A DNA stretch of 38,572 bases from Betaproteobacteria bacterium (GTDB taxonomy: Bacteria; Pseudomonadota; Gammaproteobacteria; Burkholderiales; SG8-41): contig JACQGO010000210.1 in the NCBI GenBank assembly GCA_016199485.1, positions 1 to 38,572 on the forward strand. Direction: 5' to 3'. This document shows, in pieces, positions 29,586-37,109 of this stretch (within the stretch, counting starts at the first letter, position 1; every line of letters starts with the position of its first letter). Made by a program: the position numbers and the translations under genes. Below the pieces are notes generated by a model. That model was not told where the DNA came from, did not search any database, and was given only the letters and a program-made list of their open reading frames with translations.

Positions 29586-30482
29586 CTACTTCCACTCCTT
29601 GAGCATATCGGCCCGCCTTAGACCGGACTTGATTTGCTCGATGCGGTCTTCGGTCAACGGCAGGAATGGCAGCTTGGGAACTCCAATGTCAATGCCAAGC
29701 AGCGGCAGCACCGCATGATAAAACGGAACGGGAATTCCTTCCCCCGTCAGTTTGCGCACAGAATTCGCCTGCTTCTGCAAGGTTCCGGCTTCGAGAAATC
29801 GTCCGTCTTGGCATAGCTGATAGATCGCCTTGACGAACTTCGGAAAGGCGTTCGATAGGCCGGATACGCAACCGTGCGCCCCGCCTACCATGGCCGGCAC
29901 AAGGTGTGTCTGCGAGCCGATCAAAAAGAGGAAGTCGGGGACAGTTACCTTCCCCATATATTCATAGAACAAAGCAATGTCACCGCTGCTGTCTTTGACT
30001 CCCTGAACACCTTTTTCGGCGAGCCTGGAAAGGAGATCTGCCGATACAGAAAAATTGCTGTATTTGGGATTATTGTAGACGAGAACCGGAATTTTTACCG
30101 AGTTGATGATGGATTCGTAGTGGCGAATAATCGAGCCTTCGCTGTGCCGAAAATAGAAGGGCGTCACGGCAGCGACCGCGTCCATTCCGACAGACTCGGA
30201 ATGTCTGGCCAGCTCGATACTGCTTGCCGTATCCGGGCATCCGATGTGCATGATCAGAGGGATTCTTTTTTGGACCACTTCTACGCTAATTTCGGCGATT
30301 CTTTTTCGCTGGTCCACCGTCATGATGGGTCCCGACCCGTAGGACCCGCACAACCACAATCCATCCACCTGCGGTACGAGGTGCTCCAAGTAACGTCGTA
30401 GTGCCGTTTCGGCCACGCGACCATCGGCGTCGAATGGTGTGATCACTGCCGGATAGATTCCCTTGAATCTTGAAACATTCAT
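29586..30482 (-). CDS. DapA/NanA superfamily aldolase, resembling 2-keto-3-deoxygluconate aldolase
   Basis: 298 residues, the standard length. Schiff-base Lys163 is in GVKDSSGD and catalytic Tyr136 in VLVYNNP. The dihydrodipicolinate synthase GTTGES loop is replaced by GSYGSGP (46-52). This resembles the GTTGLGPALS loop that I recall from KDG/KDPG aldolases of this superfamily. With a KDG-kinase-like gene directly upstream, cleavage or formation of a 2-keto-3-deoxy sugar acid is the best guess, but substrate cannot be read from sequence. It is the last gene of the minus-strand block. Confidence 0.85.
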   Translation of the reverse strand: MNVSRFKGIYPAVITPFDADGRVAETALRRYLEHLVPQVDGLWLCGSYGSGPIMTVDQRKRIAEISVEVVQKRIPLIMHIGCPDTASSIELARHSESVGMDAVAAVTPFYFRHSEGSIIRHYESIINSVKIPVLVYNNPKYSNFSVSADLLSRLAEKGVQGVKDSSGDIALFYEYMGKVTVPDFLFLIGSQTHLVPAMVGGAHGCVSGLSNAFPKFVKAIYQLCQDGRFLEAGTLQKQANSVRKLTGEGIPVPFYHAVLPLLGIDIGVPKLPFLPLTEDRIEQIKSGLRRADMLKEWK

Positions 30483-30561: not shown

Positions 30562-31596
30562 TCACCGGTGAATTGAGTCTCGCCCACCGAGAAACTGTTC
30601 GACCTGCTCTCTCGTCGGAAGGGCTTCGACGTTGCCGCGCACGGTTACCGTCAATGCGCCAACTGCGTTAGCGTAAACCAGCGATTCCCGAAGCTTCCAG
30701 CCGTTAAGGTATCCCGCCAGGAAACCAGCCGTAAATGCGTCGCCCGCGGCGAAGGTGTCCATAACCGGGACCTTGTGCCCTTCGACGGCGACTTCCTCCG
30801 TGTTCTTTTTGGCGACAGCGCCATTCGCGCCAAGTTTTATGGCAACTAGTTGCACTCCCAGGGTCTCCACCTTCCGGGAGACATGACCGAGCTCGGCAGA
30901 GCCGAAGAGCAGATTGCACTCCTCGATTCCCGGAAACAGAAAGTCTGTGTACTTGAGCATTTCATTGATGGTCTCACGCGCGTCGTCCTCATTCCACATC
31001 TTCAGCCGGATGTTTGGATCAAGGGACACTTTTACCCCGTGCTTTCGCGCAAGCTTCATCGCGTAGATAACGGCTTCCCGGCAGCTGGGGCTTAACGAAG
31101 GAGTAATACCGGTCACGTGCAGAACGCGGGCCTGTGAAATGTAACCCTCGTCGATATCCTCAACACTCAAGAAACTCGCGGCCGAGTGCTTCCGATAGTA
31201 GAAGTTCTGGCCGCCGCCAACTCCGGAGCGTTGCCGAACAAAAAGCCCGGTGGGATGTTCGCGATCGATTTTCACCTGCGAGACGTCGATGCCTTCGCCG
31301 CGAAAAAATGAGACGAGATAGTGGCCGAACTCATCTTCGCCAACTCGGCTGATCCAGCCCGCGGAATGCCCCAGTCTGAGCACCCCGACGGCAACATTAG
31401 TTTCCGCGCCCCCCGCGTGACGCTCATAGGATGTAACGTATCTAAGAAGTCCAGGGCGAGTCCCTTCGAATACAACGCACGTCTCGCCCACGGTCACAAC
31501 CTCTGGCACGATTGCGCTCTTCCCCGTGTCTGCTGGGCCGCCTGCATGTCGGGCACCTTGGCCTTTTGAATGCTGGACGCTGAGATTCGGATTCAT
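30562..31596 (-). CDS. PfkB family sugar kinase, 2-keto-3-deoxygluconate kinase-like
   Basis: 344 residues. The ribokinase fold is clear: GGAETNVAVGVLRLG (62-76), GRVGEDEFG-like SRVGEDEFGHY, SLDPNIRLKMW (191-201), and PfkB signature DTFAAGDAFTAGFLAG with catalytic Asp286. The DPNxR-LW segment and the overall pattern point to KDG kinases. The first 30 residues (HSKGQGARHAGGPADTGKSA) have no counterpart in the family, and a GTG just before PEVVTVGE could be the true start. The gene lies 79 bp upstream of the aldolase-like gene and 58 bp downstream of the LeuD-like gene, all in one direction. Confidence 0.87.
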   Translation of the reverse strand: MNPNLSVQHSKGQGARHAGGPADTGKSAIVPEVVTVGETCVVFEGTRPGLLRYVTSYERHAGGAETNVAVGVLRLGHSAGWISRVGEDEFGHYLVSFFRGEGIDVSQVKIDREHPTGLFVRQRSGVGGGQNFYYRKHSAASFLSVEDIDEGYISQARVLHVTGITPSLSPSCREAVIYAMKLARKHGVKVSLDPNIRLKMWNEDDARETINEMLKYTDFLFPGIEECNLLFGSAELGHVSRKVETLGVQLVAIKLGANGAVAKKNTEEVAVEGHKVPVMDTFAAGDAFTAGFLAGYLNGWKLRESLVYANAVGALTVTVRGNVEALPTREQVEQFLGGRDSIHR

Positions 31597-31654: not shown

Positions 31655-32206
31655 TCACCTGGGACCAAGGTGAAGCGTTCCGGCCTTCAGTTGCTGCTCA
31701 ATCCAGGGGTAGATTCCACCCGCATCCAACATTTCTAGGATGAAGGTCGGAAATGGCTTGAAGTTCAACTCTTCCTTCGTCCGAAGGTTTCTTGCGTAGC
31801 CCCTCTCCACATCCAACTCCAGTTCATCCCCCTGTTGGACTGCTTTTCTAATCCCCTTGAGTTCCACTACCGGAAGGCCATGGTCGAGGCTGTTGCGCAG
31901 AAAGTAGGGACCAGCACTTTCACATAGTACGGCAGCCACTCCCGCGCCCTTGATGGCCTTGGGTCCGGTATCGTGATCATGGCCGTATCCAAAGTTTTCG
32001 CCGGCCACGATGAAATCCCCTTTTCGCACTTTCTTGGGGAAATCAGGGTCCACCTTGATCATCGCAAACTGCCCAATTTGGTCATAGCGCCCCCAGACGC
32101 CAAGTTCGACTCCTGCACTTTGAAGCTCGGGAAAGGGACAGATCTCCCAATCCACATCCATGATGCCGTCGAAGACCCACGCCTTACCTCGCAGTGGTTT
32201 CACCAT
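31655..32206 (-). CDS. LeuD-like (aconitase small-subunit) protein with a replaced active-site motif
   Basis: 183 residues, the size of archaeal-type 3-isopropylmalate dehydratase small subunits. The frame fits from RGKAWVF to the C-terminus (PFPTFILEMLDAGGIYPWI), with KVDPDFPKKVRKGDFIVAGENFG well preserved. In LeuD the next residues are CGSSREHAP, where Ser and Arg act in catalysis. Here they read YGHDHDTGP (73-82), so both are gone and two His and two Asp appear. The N-terminal DTD-II motif is also changed (MDVDWEI). It should not be a normal isopropylmalate isomerase. The partner is the equally altered LeuC-like protein at 35853. Ribosome site GGGGG precedes ATG 32206. Confidence 0.85.
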   Translation of the reverse strand: MVKPLRGKAWVFDGIMDVDWEICPFPELQSAGVELGVWGRYDQIGQFAMIKVDPDFPKKVRKGDFIVAGENFGYGHDHDTGPKAIKGAGVAAVLCESAGPYFLRNSLDHGLPVVELKGIRKAVQQGDELELDVERGYARNLRTKEELNFKPFPTFILEMLDAGGIYPWIEQQLKAGTLHLGPR

Positions 32207-32290
32207 CGTTTGCCCCCGATGCGATAGCTTTGGAATTTAGCGCGCACAATACAATCCTATGGTCAGGGTGATGTCCATCTGACATCTCCT

Positions 32291-32656
32291 TTAGCCAAGC
32301 ACTTTTTCAGCGAAACCTTTCACCTGCTGGTAGCTTCCAATACATTTCTTTCCATCTTCAACACTCCACGCCCTCGCTCGTCGAAGATTGCGGCGAAGAT
32401 CCTCGATGTACTTCATTGCCGAAAACAGTGGTTGCAACTCGCGCTTAACCAAGGTCTCTAGCTGGGGCTTATCCGAATGCAGAAGATCCGCCCCTTCCTT
32501 TGTAACGGAATATTTGTGAAGGATCGCATTGAGGAGATGTGTCCCCGCTAGCATGCACGCCTCGACGAATATCTCGTGGTCCTGGTCACGGTCGAGTTTA
32601 TTGAGCATTGTTTGCTCGATCCGGTATGCCTTGGTTAAGTGGTCAATGATTCGCAT
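32291..32656 (-). CDS. Small helical protein of unknown function, paralog B of a tandem pair
   Basis: 121 residues, predicted mostly helical: HLTKAYRIEQTMLNKLDRDQDHEIFVEACMLAGTHLLNAILHKYSVT, then LFSAMKYIEDLRRNLRRA and KCIGSYQQVKGFAEKVL. It aligns over its whole length with the next gene upstream. Shared positions include the DxEI-x4-C block, N-x2-LHK, TKE-x2-DL-x-H, K-x-IEDL and C-x3-Y-x2-V-x3-AEK. I recognise no family. The HEPN-like look (a bundle with LHK and long helices) is only an impression. It sits between its paralog and the LeuD-like gene and may be an accessory subunit of that enzyme. Confidence 0.75.
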   Translation of the reverse strand: MRIIDHLTKAYRIEQTMLNKLDRDQDHEIFVEACMLAGTHLLNAILHKYSVTKEGADLLHSDKPQLETLVKRELQPLFSAMKYIEDLRRNLRRARAWSVEDGKKCIGSYQQVKGFAEKVLG

Positions 32657-32680
32657 AAGTTTCTTCTATGGTCTACGCGA

Positions 32681-33052
32681 TTATCCGTTGATAAGTTTCT
32701 CAGCGTATGCTCTAACCTTTCCGTACGCAGCCAGACAATTTCTCACCGCTTGCGGATCGATAGGTTCAATGCCCCTCACAAAACGCGGTCCCAAATCTTC
32801 GATCGATTTCAAGATGGCCAACATCTCAGCCACGGCAGGTGGCACTTCACGATTTAACTCTGGCATGTTCGCGTGAATAAGGTCAAAGGTCTCTTTTGTA
32901 ATTCCAGCCTTGTGAAGCACGACATTCGCCAACTGGGCCCCTCCCTGGATACAACTCCAAATGATTATTTCGTAGTCATCTTTGTCATTGAGCTTGGTCG
33001 TCCTGGTTGTCTCCAAGCGTCTGGCCTTTGCCCAGTGTTCTTCTGCGCGCAT
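32681..33052 (-). CDS. Small helical protein of unknown function, paralog A of a tandem pair
   Basis: 123 residues, homologous to the gene 24 bp downstream. Key shared segments are MRxxxHxxKAxRxE at the start, DYEIIIWSCIQGGAQLANVVLHKAGITKE in the middle, LKSIEDLGPRFVRG, and CLAAYGKVRAYAEKL at the end. No signal peptide or membrane helix is visible. AAGGGA lies before ATG 33052. The two genes are clearly old duplicates, and an adjacent pair like this often forms a hetero-oligomer. Position within the catabolic block suggests a role with the aconitase-like pair, but this is inference. Confidence 0.77.
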   Translation of the reverse strand: MRAEEHWAKARRLETTRTTKLNDKDDYEIIIWSCIQGGAQLANVVLHKAGITKETFDLIHANMPELNREVPPAVAEMLAILKSIEDLGPRFVRGIEPIDPQAVRNCLAAYGKVRAYAEKLING

Positions 33053-33251
33053 TGAATAATCCCTTATTTTCTCGGTTTTGAAGTTATCCCCAAACCTTTA
33101 AAAATCTCGGCTGACGTTTCTCTTCAAAGCAACCACCCTAGTAGATCAAACACCTGCCGCCGTTCATCTGCGAGTACCGCACAAAGTGGATAAAAATTGA
33201 AGGTACGCCACGGATGATCCGACCGGCTCTTTGGGTGCCAAGTTGAGTGAG

Positions 33252-33434
33252 AGAGACTCAACCCGGAAAGGAGCGAAACACGCCAAGAAGGCATTTACCC
33301 TTGAGCCGATGGTCGCGAAACTACGGCAGATTGAGATGTCCGTGGCGCGAGGCAAAAACGTGACTGTGGTGAGCTACGAAGCCGGTATCTCGGAGTAATG
33401 CTGCTATCGCTGGTACATGAGTATGAGTTCATGA
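33252..33434 (+). pseudogene. IS3-family transposase orfA relic
   Basis: In the 467-bp gap between the paralog pair and the SDR gene, one plus-strand frame reads KKAFTLEPMVAKLRQIEM, then SVARGKNVTVVSYEAGISE, a stop (33396-33398), then CCYRWYMS and a second stop. This matches the helix-turn-helix start of IS3-type OrfA (RFTPEQIxxKLRQxEV, GKTxxxACKEAGISEQTYYRWRKEYG). The Q to stop change, lost start and missing OrfB show a decayed fragment. It lies on the opposite strand to its neighbours. Nothing else is recognisable in the gap except a palindrome. Confidence 0.75.
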
Positions 33435-33444
33435 CTCATGAACT
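33426..33444. repeat. 19-bp palindrome with 9-bp arms
   Basis: AGTTCATGA-C-TCATGAACT pairs perfectly around a central C. It overlaps the end of the IS3 relic and lies about 76 bp past the SDR stop codon. It could be an operator-like site, a weak hairpin or a target/end of a mobile element. Confidence 0.5.
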
Positions 33445-33519: not shown

Positions 33520-34350
33520 CTACGTTGTTCCACCACACACGCTGATAGCCTGACCCGTTACGTACGAGCTTGCTTCGGAAGCCAAGAAGGCAACCATTGC
33601 CGCAACTTCCTCCGGGTGGCCTTGCCGACCGACTGGTATATGCTCGACGCGTTTGGCAAGCCCTGCTTCCAAATCGTCTCCCGGGTGGCTTAGCCTCGCT
33701 GCACTAAGCGCCCTGCTCGTGAGAATGGCGCCGGGACAGATTGCATTGACAGTGATTCCGTGCGGGGCAAGATCCACCGCCAATGCACGTGTGAAGCCTA
33801 CAATTGCCGCCTTGGACGCTGAATAGACCGCCTTATGCTTTCTGCCGTACTTAGCAGAAGCCGAAGAAATACTAATGATTCGTCCCCATCCTTGCTTTCG
33901 CATAGGTGTCACGGCAGATCGTGACATCAGGAATACTCCACGGGCATTGATTGCCATCACGTTCTCCCACACGTCCAGAGGTACATCCTCGATATCGGCG
34001 CGATCTCGACCATAGGGTGCGCCAGCATTGTTAACAAGAATGTCGAGTCGGCCATATCGCGCCAGAACCTCGCGGACCATGCGTGCCGCATCAACTTCAG
34101 AGGTCACATCTCCTTGCCCCGAAGAAGCGGTACCACCGGCCGCGACGATCTCATCCACGAGAGATTCAAGCCCTCGCCAGGACTGATCAGTATCATTCTG
34201 CAAATCACCTACATTGGCAACGCCTCGTATCGCCACATCGGTTACGACCACAATCACGCCAGACGCAGCTAACGCACGTGCCGTAGCAGATCCGATCCCT
34301 TTTTGTTTACCGCAACCCGTTATCAGCGCGACTCGGCTAGACGCTTTCAT
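33520..34350 (-). CDS. Short-chain dehydrogenase/reductase (SDR), 3-ketoacyl reductase-like
   Basis: 276 residues, classical SDR. Cofactor motif is TGCGKQKGIGSATARAL (11-27), slightly expanded compared with TGxxxGIG. NNAG is at 107-110, the catalytic Ser in IISISSAS, and YSASK gives Tyr176 and Lys180. The C-terminal VTGQAISVCGGTT is usual. It oxidises or reduces a hydroxyl/keto group with NAD(P). Substrate is unknown. As part of the minus-strand block it probably handles a hydroxy or sugar acid intermediate. GAGGAAA precedes the ATG. Relics of two insertion sequences flank the gene. Confidence 0.9.
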   Translation of the reverse strand: MKASSRVALITGCGKQKGIGSATARALAASGVIVVVTDVAIRGVANVGDLQNDTDQSWRGLESLVDEIVAAGGTASSGQGDVTSEVDAARMVREVLARYGRLDILVNNAGAPYGRDRADIEDVPLDVWENVMAINARGVFLMSRSAVTPMRKQGWGRIISISSASAKYGRKHKAVYSASKAAIVGFTRALAVDLAPHGITVNAICPGAILTSRALSAARLSHPGDDLEAGLAKRVEHIPVGRQGHPEEVAAMVAFLASEASSYVTGQAISVCGGTT

Positions 34351-34689: not shown

Positions 34690-35682
34690 TTAATCGACTT
34701 TGGCGCCGGAAGCCTTGACTATCGTCTCCCACTTGGCGATCTCGTCGCGCACAAAAACCGCAAATTGCTCGGGCGTACTGCCGACACGCTCCGCACCTTG
34801 GCTCAGAAACCGTTCATTCATTTCATTCGAGTTGATGGCCCTGATGAGTGCGGCATTAAGGTAGGAGTAGAGGGTCTTGGGTGTGCCGGGCGGTAAGAAT
34901 ACACCATGCCAGGTCGAAGGTTTAAAGCGGGCAAGGCCCGACTCGGCGGAGGTCGGTACTTTGGGCAGCAGCGCTGAGCGCCGTTCAGCCGTGAGAACCA
35001 GTGCGCGCAGCTTCCCGCTTCGCACATGCGGCAACAGTGACGGGATGGTGTTGAATGTCAGGTCCACTCGCCCCGCAAGCAGATCCGACAGCGACGCAGG
35101 GAAACCCTTGTACGGAACGTGCGTGATGTCGATACCCGCCACGATTTTCAGCATCACCCCCGTAAGGTGCGAGCCGCTGCCGTTGCCCGCCGACGCGAAG
35201 GTAATCTGGCCGGGTTTAGTTTTGGCGAGAGCAATTAAATCCTGCAGCGAGTTCGTCGGCACAATCGGATTCGAGACCAGCAGATACGGCAGCGTCGTGA
35301 GTTGGGTGATGGGAACAAAGTCTTTCAGAGGATCATAAGGCAGTTTTGACAACAGGGTAGGGGTGATCGCGAAGGCGACATTCGTCATCAGCAACGTATG
35401 GCCGTCGGGCGATGCCTTGGCAACCAGATCCGAACCGATTACCCCTCCCCCACCGCCGCGATTCTCGACGACTACCTGCTGGCCGAGGACAACGCCAAGA
35501 CTTTGGGCAACAAGGCGGGCAACAGTATCGATCGACCCTGACGCGAGGAATGGCACGATCATTCTGATCGGCTTGGACGGATAAGCCTGCTCTGAACTTG
35601 TCGAACGGGACTGCGCGGCCGTCGCGCACGCAAACCCGAACGCGACCGCAAGCACAAACGCACGCAGCAGTGGATGTCTCAT
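34690..35682 (-). CDS. Bug family (TctC-type) tripartite tricarboxylate receptor
   Basis: 330 residues. Signal peptide 1-23 (AFVLAVAFGFACATAAQ) and a full Bug domain: YPSKPIRMIVPFLASGSIDTVARLVAQSLG, VVENRGGGGGVIGSDLVAKASPDGHTLLM, THVPYKGFPASLSDLLAGRVDL and HVRSGKLRALVLTA. It is a periplasmic high-affinity receptor for a small acid. It is clearly different from the other Bug protein in the island, so two related substrates or two acquisitions are possible. Its ATG overlaps the stop of the CobW-like fragment upstream. It lies in the same direction as the LeuC-like gene and is presumably its importer component. Confidence 0.92.
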   Translation of the reverse strand: MRHPLLRAFVLAVAFGFACATAAQSRSTSSEQAYPSKPIRMIVPFLASGSIDTVARLVAQSLGVVLGQQVVVENRGGGGGVIGSDLVAKASPDGHTLLMTNVAFAITPTLLSKLPYDPLKDFVPITQLTTLPYLLVSNPIVPTNSLQDLIALAKTKPGQITFASAGNGSGSHLTGVMLKIVAGIDITHVPYKGFPASLSDLLAGRVDLTFNTIPSLLPHVRSGKLRALVLTAERRSALLPKVPTSAESGLARFKPSTWHGVFLPPGTPKTLYSYLNAALIRAINSNEMNERFLSQGAERVGSTPEQFAVFVRDEIAKWETIVKASGAKVD

Positions 35683-35852: not shown

Positions 35853-37109
35853 TCACAGATATTTTCGTGGGTCTGTTATCTTTCCTGCGACGCAGGATGC
35901 GGTGACGGTATACGGCGCCGCCAAGAACATCTTTGCTGAGAGATCGCCGCCCCGTCCCGGGGGATTGGTTGACCCCGTGTTTACGCCTATCTCTCCAATT
36001 CCCAACGGCGTATTCTTATCTGTGCCGGGGACGTGCAGAACGCATTCGGCAGCCAGCAGCGTCGAAACGAAGCCCTCATTCACTGCGTCTCGAAGGATGT
36101 TCATACTACCTGGCACGATATCCATGATAACGTCAGGATGAATTTTGCGGCCTTCCAGAATCTCGGCTGCCATCCTTATGTCGGCCAGCCAGCCGTTGTG
36201 TTCCGTGCCAACCATACCCTTGTTAATCGTGACCCCCGCCACCTCAGACACAGGTTTTACCGTGTAGCGATTGTCTGGCATCACCACTTGCGGTTCGATG
36301 TTAGACACGTCAAATTCATACACTTTCGCATAGTGCGCGTCCGGATCACTGACTAACGGCTCAAATTCCTCACCAGAGTGATGCCTCACCCAGGATAATG
36401 TCTTCTCATCAGGATTCATGATTGAGGTCCACGCACCAGTGAACAGCGTCACTCCACATAAGCAGAACCTTGCGTCCATGTCCATCTCGTCAACGACGGG
36501 CCCCACCCACTCCGTAACCATGCCAACGGCACCCGACGGCCCGATTCGTCCCAGCGTGTACTCCGAAATGTCTCTGGCGGATACCCCCTTGGGGAGCTTG
36601 CCCTTGATGATCATCTTGCAACTCTGAGGAACCTTGATCCATGTCTTGCCTCTGGCGAGGTAAGCGCCTGTGCCAAAGGAAAGTGCTAAGGAAAAGCAGC
36701 CTAGCGCTCCTACAGTGCAGGTGTGACCATTAACTCCTTGAAAGATACACTCCCCAGGTAGTGCCCAGCCCTTTTCCGCAGTAATTATCGCTTCAGCACC
36801 CTGCCGTCCCAGCTCGTAGATGTATTCCTTGCGGATACCCATTGCCTTGGCCCACTCGCGCGTCGTTCGCCTGTTCTCTTGAGCGACCTTGCTCTCGGTG
36901 GCTCCATAGTGACCGTCTACGATCCTGATGCGATGAACATCGAACGGCTTGATACCCCATAATGCGAGTCGATCTGCTCCTTTGCCAAGCGCCGAGTGGT
37001 GCGCCATGGTCGTCGGTCGATTGCTCGTTACCTCAATGTAATCGCCGGGCGACACTTCTTTCTTATTTGCTGCTCTCGCCAGGATCTTTTCTGTGATGGT
37101 CTTGCCCAC
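35853..37109 (-). CDS. LeuC-like (aconitase large-subunit) protein lacking the iron-sulfur cysteines
   Basis: 418 residues, the length of archaeal-type 3-isopropylmalate dehydratase large subunits, and alignable from MGKTITEKIL to AGKITDPRKYL. Conserved pieces include HTCTVGALG, ARGKTWIKVP, DARFCLCGV, PDEKTL, KPVSEV and AAEILEGRKIHPDV. Two cluster-binding motifs are replaced. GSCTNGR reads GTEHNGW (301-307). The TCGPC region reads VPGTDKN (360-366). GADSHTCT has become GVNGHTCT (125-132). None of the three [4Fe-4S] cysteines remains, so normal hydratase chemistry is excluded or changed. The frame is intact with GTG start at 37109 behind GAGGAGG. First gene of the block next to tRNA-Val. Confidence 0.87.
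   Translation of the reverse strand: MGKTITEKILARAANKKEVSPGDYIEVTSNRPTTMAHHSALGKGADRLALWGIKPFDVHRIRIVDGHYGATESKVAQENRRTTREWAKAMGIRKEYIYELGRQGAEAIITAEKGWALPGECIFQGVNGHTCTVGALGCFSLALSFGTGAYLARGKTWIKVPQSCKMIIKGKLPKGVSARDISEYTLGRIGPSGAVGMVTEWVGPVVDEMDMDARFCLCGVTLFTGAWTSIMNPDEKTLSWVRHHSGEEFEPLVSDPDAHYAKVYEFDVSNIEPQVVMPDNRYTVKPVSEVAGVTINKGMVGTEHNGWLADIRMAAEILEGRKIHPDVIMDIVPGSMNILRDAVNEGFVSTLLAAECVLHVPGTDKNTPLGIGEIGVNTGSTNPPGRGGDLSAKMFLAAPYTVTASCVAGKITDPRKYL

Follow-up and report, generated by a model that had tools for sequence, protein, structure and literature searches.

The described proteins closest to the two-gene locus analysed here belong to the HEPN superfamily, in which inserts between helices 2 and 3 set the fold apart from other four-helix folds and an acidic residue in helix 2 is found in many members (PMC3710099, in the part available). 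According to the same part of that paper, the superfamily tolerates loss of the RNase motif Rx4-6H: at the end of helix 3, HEPNs of the AF0298/AbiV type retain the basic residue and have lost the His, an alternative conserved His sits in their helix 2-3 insert, and proteins of the AF0298 type may still cut RNA. Many members of MtlR also lack Rx4-6H; MtlR lies in the mannitol operon and represses it with no binding to promoter DNA (PMC3710099, same part).

The locus compared with these systems consists of two adjacent genes, A and B (Table 1), in the window, by which we mean the whole 38,572-nucleotide stretch of DNA analysed. Like the AF0298 (PDB 2hsb)/AbiV type, which is their best structural match, their products have a basic residue at the end of helix 3, have lost the motif His and carry a His in the insert region (as that type is described in the available part of PMC3710099). 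They differ from this type in being two paired paralogues rather than one protein, with no detectable sequence match, in also conserving H6, N43, H47 and D57, and in belonging to catabolic operons, with no nucleotidyltransferase partner seen among the window neighbours tested. With the MNT-HEPN systems (HepT/MntA) the pair shares a predicted HEPN-like four-helix fold (MntA-HepT structures matched at Z 8-9) and the layout of two small adjacent genes, whereas here the partner is another HEPN-like protein, Rx4-6H is missing from its usual position and the context is metabolic. MtlR, like the pair, is often a motif-less HEPN protein within a catabolic operon (PMC3710099, in the part available), but the pair consists of two proteins instead of one, occurs in many pathways instead of one, has no Pfam match to MtlR and contains strongly conserved polar residues.

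Table 1 Genes and other features around the A/B pair (positions are those of the whole window)
Feature	Coordinates	Strand	Remarks
DHDPS-family aldolase/lyase	29586..30482	-	Pfam/NCBIfam
PfkB-family kinase	30562..31596	-	nearest NCBIfam model is KDG/KDGal kinase, matched below cut-off
LeuD-like small dehydratase subunit	31655..32206	-	PF00694; TIGR02087 113.3 bits vs cut-off 108.95; downstream, 84 bases from B
13-codon ORF	32237..32278	-	directly after B
Gene B	32291..32656	-	121 aa, ATG; 'second' subunit; predicted HEPN-like four-helix fold (AlphaFold2 pLDDT 90.9, pTM 0.86)
A-B gap	32657..32680	-	24 bases, both genes in same frame; 74/79 other pairs overlap instead
Gene A	32681..33052	-	123 aa, ATG; 'first' subunit; predicted HEPN-like four-helix fold (AlphaFold2 pLDDT 91.6, pTM 0.87)
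Short degraded-looking stretch	33164..33440	+	between SDR gene and A
Short-chain dehydrogenase (SDR)	33520..34350	-	Pfam/NCBIfam; upstream, 467 bases from A
TctC-family solute-binding protein	34690..35682	-	Pfam
LeuC-like (aconitase family) large subunit	35853..37109	-	PF00330; TctC, SDR, A and B separate LeuC from LeuD

The initial annotation had described A and B as tandem paralogues of unknown family that align over their whole length, share several motif blocks and are clearly diverged, and this description held. BLASTP gave 35% identity and 57% positives over 121 aa with one gap (E 1e-26 in a single comparison), and all the blocks were found: D26-x-E28-I29....C34, N43..L46-H47-K48, I84-E-D-L87 and C106...Y110..V113...A117-E-K119. 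Profiles of the first and second families, built from relatives, aligned with a probability of 99.4% (E 2e-21), compared with 0.5% in a reversed-column control, so that the likeness goes beyond chance. Searches of Pfam, NCBIfam, PADLOC and PDB sequences with the single proteins and the family alignments returned no credible match to a known family, and the PDB sequence searches gave nothing below E 0.1. The HEPN and HepT families (PF05168 and PF01934) were not matched in Pfam by any of the 73 and 62 members of the two kinds. Weak Pfam or NCBIfam matches to GP16.7, DUF2755, DUF433 and RtcB, under or far from the cut-offs and inconsistent between the two subunits, were discarded, as were the similarly weak and inconsistent ones to Hydant_A_N (15/73 members, best E 0.018) and HrpE (12/62 members, best E 0.00095). 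A carboxymuconolactone decarboxylase/AhpD-like protein, considered for its size, was rejected as well, AhpD appearing only at a Foldseek probability of 0.05-0.08. Literature searches on the operons, on HEPN in catabolism and on HEPN with MtlR yielded no description of the pair in the titles and opening lines of abstracts.

We then examined the distribution of the two genes. The host genome (a 3.95-Mb MAG, 383 contigs) contains A and B as its only members, with no additional copy. Members were found in 5 of 399 sampled genomes of the order (12 matches forming six pairs, all with adjacent genes), and in a sample of the phylum the only genome with members, among 299, was the host itself. A species-level scan of 84,980 genomes, one per species, gave 81 confirmed places, 80 of which were kept; as its pattern was derived from the second subunit, any locus that has the first gene alone would escape it. 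The 80 loci are mostly from Burkholderiales and extend to Alphaproteobacteria, four Streptomyces and five Rhodococcus loci. Profiles of both kinds placed the two genes side by side in 79 of the 80, always in the order first-second, and in 74 of these 79 the genes overlap, by exactly 4 bases in 38 and by 11 in 24; these gene ends were assigned automatically, and a few starts may be misplaced. The two-gene family is thus kept as a unit across several bacterial groups, and the observation of a pair is not only correct but more general than the window alone could tell. The median lengths are 153 aa for the first gene and 121 aa for the second, and nearly all other first subunits have about 28 extra residues ahead of D57, an insert between helices 2 and 3 that A lacks. 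Locus L109, 68-69% identical to the window pair, forms with it a rare variant in which this insert is missing from both subunits. The sole locus with a lone second gene, L077 of Paralcaligenes ureilyticus, may offer a natural test of partner-free function. On plasmids, three records with a related second gene were found.

To follow the descent of the pair, a tree was built from 27 first and 27 second subunits, taken from 27 of the 80 pairs that were picked for spread. First and second subunits fell on the two sides of one branch (support 99/86; 98% of bootstrap trees), with A on the first side next to the L109 first subunit (100/98) and B on the second side next to its L109 counterpart (98/95). 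The two kinds co-evolve: their distance matrices were correlated with r = 0.91 over 79 loci (L081, whose first gene is damaged, was omitted), against 0.15 or less in 500 permutations, and r was still 0.90 when the window and L109 were left out; within a locus, the two subunits have a median identity of 32%. Given the single supported split and the correlated distances, the simplest reading of these sequence comparisons is one old duplication, after which the pair would have been inherited jointly. Together with the fixed side-by-side order, the split and the correlation also make it likely that A and B form a hetero-oligomer, which is the part of the initial proposal, a hetero-oligomer linked to an aconitase-like enzyme, that stands.

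AlphaFold2 models, each computed from an alignment of its own kind (73 and 62 of 80 members), predict with confidence an up-down four-helix bundle for both proteins, with helices at residues 3-20, 27-48, 72-92 and 99-120 in B and at 3-20, 27-48, 72-85/87-92 and 100-122 in A. The loop between helices 2 and 3 is long in both models (residues 49-71), which fits the HEPN feature described above. The best PDB match of Foldseek for both was 1wol, an archaeal HEPN homologue (probability 1.00; E 0.051 for B and 0.018 for A), while VIA-align ranked AF_0298 (2hsb) first, with Z 12.2 and an rmsd of 2.6 A over 114 residues for B and Z 12.3 and 3.0 A over 117 for A. It was followed by 1wol, 3o10 and 1ufb, the sacsin HEPN domain being among these, and the top rows had Z 10.9-12.3; values below about 13 among helical bundles may reflect a mere common arrangement, an alpha-catenin domain reaching 10.1 against A. 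Because HEPN entries occupy the top rows for both models, kinship with HEPN is favoured; the fold is called HEPN-like here, and A and B are likely members of the HEPN superfamily. Comparison by hhalign with our own HEPN and HepT alignments (17 rows each, from 24 loci each) gave 0.2-1.6%, and the positive control, HEPN against HepT, likewise reached only 0.5%.

The conservation of single residues was then compared between the subunits. All 80 first and all 80 second subunits have N43, H47, D57, H60, E85 and the last Arg, which is R93 in A and R92 in B; next come H6 (79/80 firsts, 80/80 seconds), R88 (78/80 firsts, Gly in A; 80/80 seconds), D26 (74/80 and 77/80) and the acidic E28 in helix 2 (72/80 and 80/80). 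In Proteobacteria and Actinobacteria alike, seven positions thus show no exception, or a single one, in each of the two subunits. Each kind also has residues of its own: E32 and H40 are found in 80/80 second subunits, and W32 and T52 (80/80) as well as C91 (74/80, Phe in A) in the first. Tested from the conserved Arg columns, Rx4-6H occurred in one of the 80 firsts (L083) and in none of the 80 seconds, so the pair was not filed as a HEPN RNase. By sequence, the AF0298/AbiV-type signature, H60 in the helix 2-3 loop plus an Arg at the end of helix 3, is present in 80/80 of each kind.

What the pair may do was approached through its neighbours. A script clustered all ORFs lying within 10 kb; ten representatives were named with Pfam and the remaining cluster names come from reading. 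Over 81 loci including the window, the clusters near the pair were an ADH_zinc_N oxidoreductase (49 loci), TauD (48), TctC (46), Ldh_2 (34), the UxaA-type dehydratase GD_AH_C (33), an AMP-ligase (21), BKACE (16), Amidohydro_2 (15) and the AcnX swivel domain (2). There is no universal neighbour, and the neighbours vary between loci; 22 of the 81, the window with neither a TauD nor a UxaA-type gene among them, have no TauD, UxaA-type or AcnX gene in the clusters used, some of these loci being truncated at contig edges. The oxidoreductase lies within 250 bases on the same strand of 39/80 pairs (25 downstream, 14 upstream), and the AMP-ligase within the same distance downstream, on the same strand, of 14/80. 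In eight actinobacterial loci (L041, L050, L051, L061, L064, L083, L092 and L105) the order is oxidoreductase, first, second, AMP-ligase, with a 4-base overlap at each junction; this packing in Streptomyces and Rhodococcus is the tightest operon form observed.

These counts were set against background in eight whole genomes with 11 pairs, matched through contig numbers and positions, which agree with the ORF clusters. TauD genes, of which each genome has 2-17, lie within 10 kb of 9/11 pairs, the exceptions being the window and, in G002, the C50 locus, where a GD_AH_C dehydratase is present; GD_AH_C genes (1-5 per genome) lie within 10 kb of 5/11. A binomial estimate with a high density gives 2e-9 for TauD and 5e-7 for GD_AH_C, illustrative values only, as several loci are related. 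TauD dioxygenases and UxaA-type dehydratases are near the pair above background, in tallies that are not independent, several loci being the same operon in related genomes. TctC, near the pair in 46/81 loci, was rejected as a functional partner and taken as mostly background: there are at least 115 TctC genes in six of the eight genomes checked, and a neighbour so common is weak evidence of function. P. domus has no TctC, yet two pairs, and P. terrae, with two TctC genes, has pairs as well. Four Burkholderiales-type MAGs (G000, G002, G055 and G175) each hold at least 115 TctC-type binding proteins (241-447 first-look candidates).

We favour the reading, with a probability of roughly 0.4, that A and B are a two-subunit HEPN-fold heteromer acting as a small-molecule enzyme or substrate-handling component of organic-acid-degrading operons, and rank it above both an MtlR-like regulator and an RNase or toxin. 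That pairing is strict, that the reading frames are coupled and that invariant polar residues recur in both subunits speaks for a stoichiometric heteromer having a defined site. The two proteins would be made together from one transcript and would form an obligate heteromer, in the simplest case a heterodimer. Its putative site, drawn from the residues kept in both subunits, would comprise H6; D26/E28 and N43 with H47, from the start and the end of helix 2 respectively; D57 and H60 of the helix 2-3 loop; and, where helix 3 ends, E85, R88 and R92/R93. The heteromer may work beside the ADH_zinc_N oxidoreductase together with one of two further enzymes, a TauD-type dioxygenase or a dehydratase of hydroxy acids, the latter of the UxaA type elsewhere and LeuC/LeuD in the window. 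The diversity of these operons suggests that the pair performs a step or service common to several pathways. A fuller version, which we regard as rather doubtful, is that the HEPN fold, familiar mainly from RNA-cutting toxins and also from other RNases and the handling of nucleotides, was turned into a heterodimeric small-molecule enzyme, an old duplication having supplied two subunits that became a cassette travelling between unrelated degradation operons of Proteobacteria and Actinobacteria, where it would carry out one common step beside TauD, ADH_zinc_N and dehydratases. We know of no enzyme of HEPN-like fold with such a small-molecule role, and if the pair is catalytic, it would represent a new use of this fold. 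A pair found in two phyla, in which some ten polar residues hardly vary and which has no Pfam, NCBIfam or PADLOC model, marks a function in the degradation of organic compounds that concerns Burkholderiales, Rhodococcus and Streptomyces.

The strongest alternative, which we nevertheless consider unlikely, is that of a motif-less HEPN heterodimer resembling MtlR that represses or tunes the catabolic operon non-catalytically, by binding RNA or a partner protein. The pair lacks Rx4-6H, as do many MtlR members (PMC3710099, in the part available), and a generic regulator could serve catabolic operons of as many kinds as are seen here; such a pair would be a second case beside MtlR. However, seven near-invariant positions in both subunits are more than we would expect for a binder of diverse RNAs, ordinary regulator clusters (GntR, AraC and LysR, not all of these names Pfam-tested) are present in 45/81 loci, and no member of the pair matched any Pfam regulator family.

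A toxin-antitoxin or defence module, in which a heterodimeric HEPN RNase would use an alternative active site made of the loop His and the helix-3 Arg, appears improbable. Toxin-antitoxin loci are typically two small overlapping genes, a layout that the pair shares, and its predicted fold is HEPN-like, with R92/R93 and H60 matching the Arg and alternative His of the AF0298 type (PMC3710099, in the part available). On the other hand, the same residues are kept in both partners, rather than one being active and the other neutralising; the neighbours are metabolic, the pair is rare (5/399 genomes of the order) and, in actinobacteria, it is embedded in operons by 4-base overlaps. We set this module aside because no minimal nucleotidyltransferase (MNT) was seen among the window neighbours tested and PADLOC gave no credible match for ten members, its lone weak one being to Cas12a (E 0.015). 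Automatic annotation of such pairs as toxin-antitoxin modules calls for caution.

In the window itself, one strand carries LeuC, TctC, SDR and LeuD along with a kinase of the PfkB family and an aldolase of the DHDPS type, a set that resembles a sugar-acid route. Unusually, TctC, SDR and the pair come between LeuC and LeuD, which may form one dehydratase. As dehydrogenase (SDR), dehydratase (LeuCD), KDG-type kinase and DHDPS-type aldolase are present and no ring-opening step was seen, the pair could be a lactonase or isomerase filling the missing step. We hold this to be very improbable: it is read from one locus, neighbours elsewhere (AMP-ligase, TauD, BKACE) are unlike a sugar-acid route, and the direction of the route is itself conjectural.

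The second half of the initial proposal, the link to the aconitase-like enzyme, fared differently from the first. The LeuC/LeuD isopropylmalate-type dehydratases are neighbours of the pair in the window, have no sequence relation to it and are missing beside it elsewhere: when the window LeuC and LeuD were compared by BLASTP (E 1e-5) with the ORFs from the 80 other loci, no locus gave a hit. Another recognised aconitase-type part occurs in two of the 80, both from Alphaproteobacteria (L062 and L089), where an aconitase X swivel-domain gene lies 37-60 bases ahead of the first gene. The gene-neighbourhood survey thus found neighbours without aconitase-like genes at nearly all loci, an outcome that the initial annotation had itself named as refuting its proposal, and an aconitase-linked complex as a general role was ruled out because LeuC/LeuD occur in 0/80 other loci. 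In a weaker form the link is partly retained, since GD_AH_C/UxaA-type dehydratases, a different family, are near the pair in 33/81 loci. That A and B are accessory or assembly subunits of the LeuC/LeuD-like dehydratase is the least probable reading of all, for although LeuC and LeuD flank them on their own strand, and AcnX swivel or UxaA-type genes accompany some relatives, LeuC/LeuD are missing at the 80 other loci, TauD is near the pair in 48/81, and of 200 genomes of the order 10 have LeuD-like proteins (E 1e-20) and 5 the pair, with only 3 shared (G000, G002 and G175), in two of which (G002 and G175) the two are on different contigs.

Two smaller features flank the pair in the window. The degraded-looking stretch upstream of A, which we take to resemble the beginning of a helper ORF of an IS3-type transposase, may have cut the pair off from the genes upstream. 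The 13-codon ORF after B, to which a Shine-Dalgarno-like AGGAG just behind the B stop belongs, may be a leader or a remnant ahead of LeuD.
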